NCBI RefSeq assembly: GCF_025989185.1
Contig: NZ_JAPDNT010000001.1
Coordinates: 372,001 to 436,000 of the forward strand
Reading direction: 5' to 3'
Origin: Limobrevibacterium gyesilva
GTDB taxonomy: Bacteria > Pseudomonadota > Alphaproteobacteria > Acetobacterales > Acetobacteraceae
Length of the DNA stretch: 64,000 bases
The notes beneath the pieces are model-generated. The model saw nothing but the letters and a program-made list of their open reading frames with translations, was not told the origin of the DNA and searched no databases. Made by a program: the position numbers and the translations under genes. Shown here piece by piece: positions 34,726 through 51,379 of the stretch. How positions within the stretch are numbered: the stretch's first letter is position 1; every line of letters begins with the position of its first letter.

Positions 34726-35837
34726 AGCTGGACGATCTCCCCACGCCGTGCCTGGTACTGGAGCGGCCGATCCTCCAGCGCAACCTGGATGCGATGGCAC
34801 AGGCGGTCGCCCGGCATGGCGTGGCGTTGCGGCCGCATATGAAGACCGCGAAATCGATCGACGTCGCCCGGCTGGCGCTTGCCACGCCGCAGGCCCGGCC
34901 ATCCGGCATCACCGTCTCGACGCTGGCGGAAGCCGAGTACTTCGTCGGGCACGGGATCACCGACGTGCTTTACGCCGTCGGCATCACGCCGCAGAAGCTG
35001 GAGCAGGTGGCGAAGCTCAATGTCGCCGGCGCGTCGGTGATGGTCATCACCGATGACCCCGAGGTTGCGAGCATCATCGCTGCGCAGCCGCATCCGCCGC
35101 GCGTGCTGGTCGAGGTCGACACCGGCGAGCACCGTGGCGGCGTGGCGCCGGAGGACCCGGCGCTGCTGGATATCGCGGCTCGCCTCGGCCAGACCCTCGC
35201 CGGCGTCATCACGCATGCGGGTCACAGCTATGCCGGCCGCTCGGCGCAGCAGATGGCCGACATCGCAGAAATCGAGCGCAGCGGCGCCGTTCGCGCGGCC
35301 GAGCGGCTGACGGCCGCCGGCCTGCCGTGCCCGATCGTATCGATGGGCAGCTCCCCTACCGCCTTGCACGCCGCCAACCTCGATGGCGTCACCGAAGTTC
35401 GTGCCGGCGTCTACATGCTCGGCGACCTGTTCCAGGCGGAGATCGGCACGCACGGCCTGGGCGACATCGCCGTGACGGTGCTTGCCAGCGTCATCGGCCA
35501 CCGCCCGTCGCAAGGGCAGATCGTGATCGACGCCGGCGGCATCGCGCTGTCGAAGGACCGCAGCACCGAAGCGGCGCCGCATGACTGGGGCTTCGGCCTC
35601 ATGCTCGACCTGCACGGCCAGCGCAGCTTCGGTCACGCGCTGGTCAAGCGCGCCTACCAGGAACATGGCATGGTCGACCTCGACCCGAAGCTGCCGGCCC
35701 CTGACCTGCCGATCGGGGCGAAGGTGCGCATCGCGCCCAACCACATCTGCATGACCGCCGCGGCGCATGACCGTTACTTCGTGGTCGACGGCAGCGACAC
35801 GGTGACCGCGATCTGGCCGCGGGTGAACGGCTGGTAG
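34722..35837 (+). CDS. D-threonine aldolase/D-serine dehydratase-like PLP enzyme (fold type III)
   Basis: This enzyme has an alanine-racemase N-terminal barrel with K41 in LRPHMKTAKS as the PLP lysine, then VLVEVDTGEHRGGV and ITHAGHSYAG. The C-terminal beta domain carries NHICMT, the HxC zinc site of this family. It probably cleaves or dehydrates a D-beta-hydroxy amino acid. The usual Thr-His-Lys after the lysine is Thr-Ala-Lys here. The ATG overlaps the M81 stop. The stop is one base from the end of the convergent MFS gene. Confidence 0.88.
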   Translation: MKLDDLPTPCLVLERPILQRNLDAMAQAVARHGVALRPHMKTAKSIDVARLALATPQARPSGITVSTLAEAEYFVGHGITDVLYAVGITPQKLEQVAKLNVAGASVMVITDDPEVASIIAAQPHPPRVLVEVDTGEHRGGVAPEDPALLDIAARLGQTLAGVITHAGHSYAGRSAQQMADIAEIERSGAVRAAERLTAAGLPCPIVSMGSSPTALHAANLDGVTEVRAGVYMLGDLFQAEIGTHGLGDIAVTVLASVIGHRPSQGQIVIDAGGIALSKDRSTEAAPHDWGFGLMLDLHGQRSFGHALVKRAYQEHGMVDLDPKLPAPDLPIGAKVRIAPNHICMTAAAHDRYFVVDGSDTVTAIWPRVNGW

Positions 35838-49383: not shown

Positions 49384-50286
49384 ATGCATATGCCCCGAGC
49401 CGCCGGCACGCACACTGGCATGACGATCGTGTTCAACCCCGCCGCCGGGCGCCGGCGCGCGCAGCTCCTGTGGCACGTGCTCGATGTCATGGCGGCGAAC
49501 GGCGTCGGCTTCGAGATCGAGGAGACACGGCGCCCTGGTCATGCGACCGAGATCGCACGGCAGGCCGCCCGTGCCGGCATCACCCTCGTGGTCGCGGCCG
49601 GCGGCGACGGCACGATCGCGGAAGTCGCCAACGGGTTGTCCGGCTCGCCCTGCCGGCTGGGGATCATCCCGCTGGGAACCGCAAATGTGCTGGCGCACGA
49701 GCTGGGCCTGCCATTCGCCCCCCGGGCAGTGGCCGCGTCGCTTGCGTTCGGGCGCACCCGCGCGGTCTGGCCCGGCATCGCGTGCGGCGAGTCAGGTACT
49801 CGTCTGTTCGTCCAGATGCTGGGGGCCGGATTCGACGCGCAAGTGGTTCATGGGCTGTCGAAGCGGTTGAAGCGGACGATCGGCCGTGGCGCCTATGTCG
49901 CGCAGACGCTCCGCGAGCTGGCGCGTTACGGGTTTCCGCCCATCCGCCTCAGGCTCGATGGCGCCGAGACGGAAACCGGCAGCGTGATCGTCACCAAGGG
50001 CCACCTCTACGCCGGCTGCTACACGCTCGCACCCGGCGCGACGCCCACGGACAAGGGATTCACCGTCGCCCTGTTCGACCGTGGCGGCCCCATGGCCGCG
50101 CTCCTCTATGGCGCGGCCCTGCCGTTGAACCTGTTGCCCCGCATGTCCGGCCTGCGCCTGCTGCGCGCCGACCGGATCGATATCCTCTCCAGTCAGGTGC
50201 CGGCGCAGGCCGACGGCGACCCCGCCGGCGAAACGCCGCTTTCGATCAGCGACGCGCCGGCGCCAATGAACGTGGTTGTCGGTTAG
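49384..50286 (+). CDS. Diacylglycerol kinase family lipid kinase
   Basis: This YegS/DgkB-type lipid kinase has MTIVFNPAAGRRRAQLL for nucleotide binding and the catalytic VVAAGGDGTIAEVANGL, then GIIPLGTANVLAHELGLP. Length (300 aa) is normal. It would phosphorylate diacylglycerol or a related lipid at the membrane. It is divergent from the LpxH-like gene. Its TAG stop codon is the first three bases of the 104-bp palindromic element at 50284. Confidence 0.92.
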   Translation: MHMPRAAGTHTGMTIVFNPAAGRRRAQLLWHVLDVMAANGVGFEIEETRRPGHATEIARQAARAGITLVVAAGGDGTIAEVANGLSGSPCRLGIIPLGTANVLAHELGLPFAPRAVAASLAFGRTRAVWPGIACGESGTRLFVQMLGAGFDAQVVHGLSKRLKRTIGRGAYVAQTLRELARYGFPPIRLRLDGAETETGSVIVTKGHLYAGCYTLAPGATPTDKGFTVALFDRGGPMAALLYGAALPLNLLPRMSGLRLLRADRIDILSSQVPAQADGDPAGETPLSISDAPAPMNVVVG

Positions 50287-50387
50287 AGCAATATCGCTAG
50301 AGGTGGAATCACCGGGCGATAAAATTGCTCGTCAAAACAATAAGCTAGAGCATGATTGGTGCTTCTATCTGCACCGATCATGCTCTA
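50284..50387. repeat. 104-bp palindromic element with TAGAGCA/TGCTCTA termini
   Basis: The ends are TAGAGCA and TGCTCTA. Inside are two hairpins: GAGCAATATCGC paired with GCGATAAAATTGCTC, and CTAGAGCATGATTGGTGC (50345-50362) paired with GCACCGATCATGCTCTAG (50371-50388), with one wobble. Similar AGAGCATGAT palindromes are scattered through many alphaproteobacterial genomes. The left end gives the stop codon of the lipid kinase; the right end gives that of the Tim44-domain gene. It may also serve as a bidirectional terminator. Confidence 0.8.
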
Positions 50388-51311
50388 GCGCGCCTGCTGG
50401 ATCGCCGACAGGACCCAACGGCCGCCGGGCACGCGCATGAAGGTCCAGATCTCCGTGGCCTCGGTCCGGCGCGTCGGATCGCCCTCCACCACGCGGCCGC
50501 TCGCGTCACGGGTGGCATCGATCATGGAGAAGCGCATCGCCACGGTCGCATATTCGCGGCCCTGCTCCGCCCAGGATTCGGCGAGATCGCCCTGCTCCAG
50601 GTGCACGTCCGTGACCGTGTTGCGCACGCCGCCGCTGGTCTGCTCGGCCATCTGTTCGGCGAAGTAGCTGACCATTTCCGGCGTCGCGACCGCACGCAGC
50701 GCGTTGACGTCATGCGCCGACCAGGCGGCCTGCACCGCCTTCAGCAACTGCTCGAACGCCTGGTAGTCCGCGGGCCCTACGGCAAGCGCCGCAACCTGTG
50801 GTGCCCCACCGCCGCCACCCATCGGCCGCACGCCCGCGTCGGGGTCGGGCGAGCGGGCGAACATGGCCCCGCCGGCGAGCGCCGGCTGGCGAAAGATCCG
50901 CCGCCATACAAAGCGACCGATCAGCACCAACAGGAAGATCTGCAGCAGGAAGCCCAGGAAGCTGCCGAAGCCGCTGATGCCGTGGAACAGCCCGCCGCCG
51001 AACAGCAACCCGCCGATGCCGGCCCCCAGCAATCCGCCCATCAGGCCGGACATGAAGGGAGAGCGGCCGGCGAAGCCAGGCTGGGCGGCGGGTGACGTGC
51101 CCGGCGCCGTCGTCGGCGCGGCCTGCGGCGTCTGTGTGCGCTGCATCGGCTGCGCGGCGCCGGGCGCCGTGGTGGTGGCCGGCGGCCGCGAATAGGTGTT
51201 GCTGCCCCGGCTGCCCATGGAGCCGCCGCCACCAGCACGCGCATCGGCCAGCCCCGGCGCGAGAACCAGCGCGAGGGCAACCAGACCAGCAAGAAGACGG
51301 ATGCGACGCAT
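50385..51311 (-). CDS. Tim44-like domain membrane protein
   Basis: The protein starts MRRIRLLAGLVALALVLAPGL, a signal or anchor segment. A Gly/Pro/Thr/Gln-rich low-complexity stretch follows, then a Gly-rich hydrophobic region (SGLMGGLLGAGIGGLLFGGG with FLLQIFLLVLIGRFVWRRI). The C-terminal Tim44-like domain (ADYQAFEQLLKAVQAAWSAHDVNAL onward) probably binds lipid or partner proteins. Bacterial Tim44-like proteins are widespread but not functionally assigned. An ATG at 51326 is an alternative start. The TAG stop falls in the palindromic element. Confidence 0.82.
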   Translation of the reverse strand: MRRIRLLAGLVALALVLAPGLADARAGGGGSMGSRGSNTYSRPPATTTAPGAAQPMQRTQTPQAAPTTAPGTSPAAQPGFAGRSPFMSGLMGGLLGAGIGGLLFGGGLFHGISGFGSFLGFLLQIFLLVLIGRFVWRRIFRQPALAGGAMFARSPDPDAGVRPMGGGGGAPQVAALAVGPADYQAFEQLLKAVQAAWSAHDVNALRAVATPEMVSYFAEQMAEQTSGGVRNTVTDVHLEQGDLAESWAEQGREYATVAMRFSMIDATRDASGRVVEGDPTRRTEATEIWTFMRVPGGRWVLSAIQQAR

Positions 51312-51379
51312 GTTGTGGCTCACCATTTCTTTGGACTCGGCCCCGTATATAGCCTCGCCTGCCTTGCAAGACGAGGGGG

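Follow-up and report, generated by a model that had tools for sequence, protein, structure and literature searches.

CIR repeats of Alphaproteobacteria are intergenic elements of ~110 bp, composed of two arms and a linker, with an exposed GANTC and TA termini (PMC2229807). A published review lists their target duplication as unknown and calls for more information on CIR movement. RUP of pneumococcus is a non-autonomous, IS630-linked MITE of ~107 bp with a TA target and is enriched between convergent genes (PMC2229807, PMC3049150). Two other repeats have been connected to stop codons: GTAG REPs "often provide" the TAG stops of flanking genes (PMC3733652), and pneumococcal BOX encodes a stop codon in 36 cases, for which a comparison with orthologues did not point strongly to truncation (PMC3049150). 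Here, we describe a CIR-like repeat whose two ends coincide with the stop codons of two convergent genes, and its relatives in other genomes.

Architecture and distribution of the repeat

In the 64,000-nucleotide stretch of DNA analyzed here (the window), a putative CIR-like MITE of 104 bp with the ends TAGAGC...GCTCTA occupies positions 50284 to 50387 (no strand assigned), starting with TAGAGCAATATCGC, finishing with CATGCTCTA and constituting the entire intergenic space between a lipid kinase gene (DAGK_cat, YegS_C; 49384 to 50286, plus strand) and a Tim44-domain gene (50385 to 51326, minus strand). The kinase ends ...NVVVG-TAG in the left end of the element, with its stop TAG at 50284 to 50286, and the Tim44-domain protein ends ...SAIQQAR-TAG in the right end, where its stop is the CTA at 50385 to 50387. 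The first-pass annotation had recognized this double use of the ends, TAGAGCA and TGCTCTA, and had read both terminal heptamers as TAGAGCA; coordinates and sequence bear it out on each point. Its term "palindromic element" fits the terminal inverted repeats, which extend over 6 to 7 terminal bases only, but not the whole, since the element is made up of two distinct hairpins with a linker between them, not of one single palindrome.

The predicted fold of the element has a free energy of -51.3 kcal/mol, against -22.9 kcal/mol for shuffled sequences (z -8.8). Arm 1 (50286 to 50330, plus strand) carries a candidate CcrM-type GAATC site in a GGTG-GAAT-CACC apical loop at about 50302 to 50313. The linker (50331 to 50345, no strand assigned) contains the conserved CAAAACAA, with a T-rich tract after arm 2 on the minus strand, and arm 2 (50346 to 50387, plus strand) forms a hairpin TAGAGCATGATTGGTGC-loop-GCACCGATCATGCTCTA with an almost perfect stem of 17 bp. 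GGAATC was present in the arm 1 loop of 20/24 copies in the element's own genome and of 55/62 and 48/91 copies in the related genomes G112 and G018, respectively, with at least one GANTC per copy in 23/24, 62/62, and 71/91. Within the 64 kb, TAGAGCANNNT occurs only three times (0.26 expected), each time inside the element. The arrangement in the window is not due to chance, as it is one of many full-length copies sharing the same ends.

About 20 copies were found in the own genome by BLAST, and a covariance model derived from 17 own-genome copies and then used to scan genomes recovered at least 20 strong full-length copies there, plus weaker ones. Family members are 104 to 105 bp long and fall into two subfamilies within the own genome. 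The model had 133 matches in G112 and 149 in G018, and few or none in other related genomes. Among plasmid records, Bradyrhizobium was the sole source of a match, at full length on plasmid pB41S5 (NZ_CP083722.1; 42.8 bits, E 3e-9); two further copies of the repeat used as queries against plasmid records returned none, and neither an Rfam search with the element nor a search of phage records returned a match. The best plasmid matches of a protein neighboring the repeat were alphaproteobacterial. Elsewhere in the window, positions 35517 to 35642 (plus strand) matched the model weakly over its full length (17.3 bits, E 0.006) and may be a decayed copy. A different repeat of ~60 bp, present in many copies, was observed in genome G173 at loci L296, L297, L299, L301, L303, L304, L306, L308, and L311, and matches the right flank of locus L180.

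Insertion at TA and the origin of the stop codons

For 177 of the best-scoring copies from three genomes (24 from the own genome, 62 from G112, and 91 from G018, the tandem copies among them not being independent), we reconstructed the target NTAN, which was YTAR in 165/177 (own genome, 21/24; G112, 57/62; G018, 87/91). Comparison of G112 copies with congeneric genomes at a flank identity of ~80 to 92% identified empty sites in genome G182 for loci L165, L172, L156, and L221, at each of which exactly 2 bp separate the two flanks; genome G180 likewise lacks the L165 copy. The fifth case, L240, is less exact: its gap measures 3 bp, and a TAG of the sister lies at or next to the position. Genome G173 was also examined for empty sites, but was too diverged. 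In addition, 13 tandem pairs of copies (11 in G018 and 2 in G112) have an overlap of exactly 2 bp, namely the TA that both copies share. The empty sites in congeners and the tandem copies sharing a TA show that the repeat family inserts at TA and duplicates it. By extension from this family-wide duplication, the window copy would carry the left TA at 50284 to 50285, which with the next G forms the TAG stop of the kinase, and the right TA at 50386 to 50387, which read on the minus strand begins the TAG stop of the Tim44-domain gene (no strand is assigned to either TA).

These observations bear on an alternative in which a REP-type element was moved by a RAYT/Y1 transposase and its TAG tag gives the stops. 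GTAG REPs do provide TAG stops and sit between convergent genes (PMC3733652), but a TA duplication at a symmetric YTAR target, in a two-armed unit of 104 bp with both ends alike, does not match the features of REP/RAYT systems (GTAG tag, short single palindrome, no target duplication), none of which the element displays, and we regard this origin as extremely improbable.

A YTAR target presents TAA or TAG itself on both strands and, because a G follows the TA at both ends of the element, any TAA or TAG that is entered becomes TAG. This is seen at L165, L172, and L221, where a TAA stop in the sister genome corresponds to TAG in the gene carrying the element; L156, with TGA in the sister, is a less exact case. 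After in silico splicing of the element, 85/86 of the ends used as stops retained a stop at the same codon. Orthologues of the kinase and of the Tim44-domain protein that lack the element in relatives terminate at matching residues, their stops being TAG, TAA, or TGA. The flanking genes therefore already stopped at that codon before insertion, and the claim of the first-pass annotation that the element supplies both stops has the direction mostly wrong: when the C-termini of orthologues are compared, as it had proposed, the stops turn out to be there by descent.

For the window copy, the T before the 5' TA and the G after the 3' TA belong to the flanking DNA and not to the element, and joining the flanks yields the reconstructed empty site GTCGGT-TA-GCGCGC. 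From the flanks, we infer a TTAG in which the TAG of the kinase overlapped the TAA of the Tim44-domain gene, and predict GGTTAGCGCGC as the sequence of the empty site, with both of these stops. The empty site itself was not seen, the nearest kinase being 72% identical, and a contig scan with the kinase returned only distant, uninformative relatives.

Stop codons, selection, and termination

We examined the context of the same 177 copies with gene models from a home-made codon-usage scorer. At least one terminal TAG serves as the stop of a flanking gene in 81/177 (own genome, 16/24; G112, 31/62; G018, 34/91), and both ends do so in 2/24, 2/62, and 1/91 copies, respectively. Copies lie between convergent genes in 93/177 cases (12/24, 30/62, and 51/91) and between divergent genes in only 4/177 (2/24, 0/62, and 2/91), whereas in the background the two types of gene pair occur at similar frequency (63 convergent versus 62 divergent in the own genome, 97 versus 97 in G182). 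A gene spanned the junction after in silico removal of the element, indicating a possibly intragenic copy, in 0/24, 3/62, and 3/91 cases; in the comparison with background YTAR sites, insertions in gene bodies numbered 0/24 in the own genome, 0/60 in G112, and 0/90 in G018, a strong depletion that extended to divergent spacers. The bias of copies to gene ends proposed in the first-pass annotation is thus real in all three genomes, as is the frequent use of the TAG end as a stop, and its suggestion that such an element can land at gene ends with limited damage is supported.

Such a bias could arise if the element actively seeks stops or gene 3' ends, through a host factor, a transcription-linked structure, or DNA bendability. 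Stop codons make up 12 to 20% of non-gene YTAR sites, a background drawn from little own-genome sequence and later extended for the convergent and tandem comparisons, versus 37 to 67% of copies (odds ratio 4 to 14), and this enrichment is what active seeking would predict. Set against convergent intergenic YTAR sites, however, stops were not enriched in the own genome (16:1 among copies versus 28:6 in the background, P 0.40) or in G112 (31:11 versus 118:50, P 0.71), and were depleted in G018 (34:30 versus 118:50, P 0.02), for which the background came from G182, a different genus. When tandem spacers were added, an excess of stops appeared in the own genome (16:6 versus 28:70, P 0.0002) and in G112 (P 0.003); the same excess could also result if insertions upstream of genes were selected against. 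Active seeking is therefore quite improbable and is not needed to explain the bias, though given the enrichment over non-gene YTAR sites, a degree of preference for stop codons or for local structure is possible in the own genome. On the simplest reading, TA targeting together with the removal of harmful insertions explains most of the bias to gene ends.

Another conceivable cause, built on the reading in the first-pass annotation, is that the element supplies new stops and is kept at gene ends as a transcription terminator acting on both sides. Strong hairpins on both strands, a T-rich linker after arm 2 on the minus strand in nearly all copies, and the strong bias of copies to 3' ends would all suit such a role. 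Yet the stops pre-exist, as orthologues, empty sites, and splicing indicate, and a consensus scan of the window region for intrinsic terminators (a GC-rich stem with an immediate T run) found none (0 matches), the window copy having only the looser T-rich tract. Orientation toward tandem genes is balanced at 38:38 (own genome, 5:5; G112, 15:15; G018, 18:18), and the arm 1 end provides the stop about as often as the arm 2 end (51:35, P 0.11). Nothing therefore suggests retention as a directional terminator. We consider this account very unlikely, although a contribution of the hairpins to termination is possible, judging from their sequence.

We propose, with high confidence, that the repeat is a CIR-type MITE that inserts at TA within YTAR, rebuilds the stop with its terminal G, and is concentrated by selection at stops and in convergent spacers. 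Under this proposal, the repeat, a non-autonomous MITE of the CIR type known from Alphaproteobacteria, would enter a TA within YTAR and duplicate it in the manner of IS630/Tc1, as seen in the relatives, and a TAA or TAG stop that is hit would be rebuilt as TAG by the first G of the element, leaving the protein unchanged, as in the loci described above. Other YTAR sites probably lie mostly in genes or promoters, where insertions would be removed by selection, and because most other sites would be purged in this way, surviving copies would gather at stop codons and in convergent spacers. In the window, the flanks suggest that the element landed in the TTAG in which the two stops overlapped, so that both would have been rebuilt. 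Whether the YTAR target and the terminal G represent an evolved safe-landing strategy, by which a selfish element finds neutral sites at stops, including overlapping convergent stops, is a further step that we regard as rather unlikely.

Mobilization and comparison with known systems

A TA duplication fits transposases of the IS630/Tc1 type. IS630-type DDE_3 genes occur in most of the genomes considered, numbering 5 in the own genome, 20 in G018, and 6 in G112. None of the DDE_3 sites checked in the own genome was flanked by a TAGAGC pair, and no transposase bearing TAGAGC at its two ends emerged from these sites or from two loci in other genomes, which were considered as a parent and rejected. 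The IS630-type element at L435 (385 to 1566) has a split transposase and the ends TACCAACCG...CGGTTGGTA, unlike those of the repeat; it has in turn entered a CIR-like copy at a TA, in a CTAA, the same YTAR context as that of the repeat. At L436 (66 to 617, minus strand), a DDE_3 transposase open reading frame reads in frame into a CIR-like copy, but it is a cut-off frame with no matching far end. As a separate observation, genome G031 (2.5 Mb) has 100 model matches yet only one partial IS630-type match, so that many copies coexist with almost no resident IS630.

The repeat described here matches CIR in its approximate length, its two hairpin arms and linker, its GANTC in or at the loop, its TA termini, and its intergenic location, an assignment made by architecture and set beside the description of CIR rather than the CIR1-4 sequences; it differs from CIR as described in that a TA duplication is evident. 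The Bradyrhizobium pB41S5 repeat shares the TAGAGC ends and the CGTCAAAACAA linker, but has different arm sequences and an arm 1 loop without GAATC. RUP is similar in length, TA target, lack of autonomy, and enrichment between convergent genes; in contrast, it has ends resembling those of a resident IS630, a partner of a kind not found for the repeat here, and is not described as two separate arms. As in GTAG REPs and BOX, the termini of the element serve as the stops of flanking genes, though both differ from it in architecture and GTAG REPs are attributed to tyrosine transposases. Repeat ends as stop codons are thus already known in kind from these precedents, and the present data add a TA duplication, found in a CIR-like family, and a mechanism that restores the stop. 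The empty sites and the tandem copies sharing a TA answer the question of movement for one CIR-like family, with a TA duplication at a YTAR target. They also explain in a simple way how repeat ends come to be stops, since the insertion target is a stop codon that the element then restores. Other elements that target TA in GC-rich genomes may follow the same principle.
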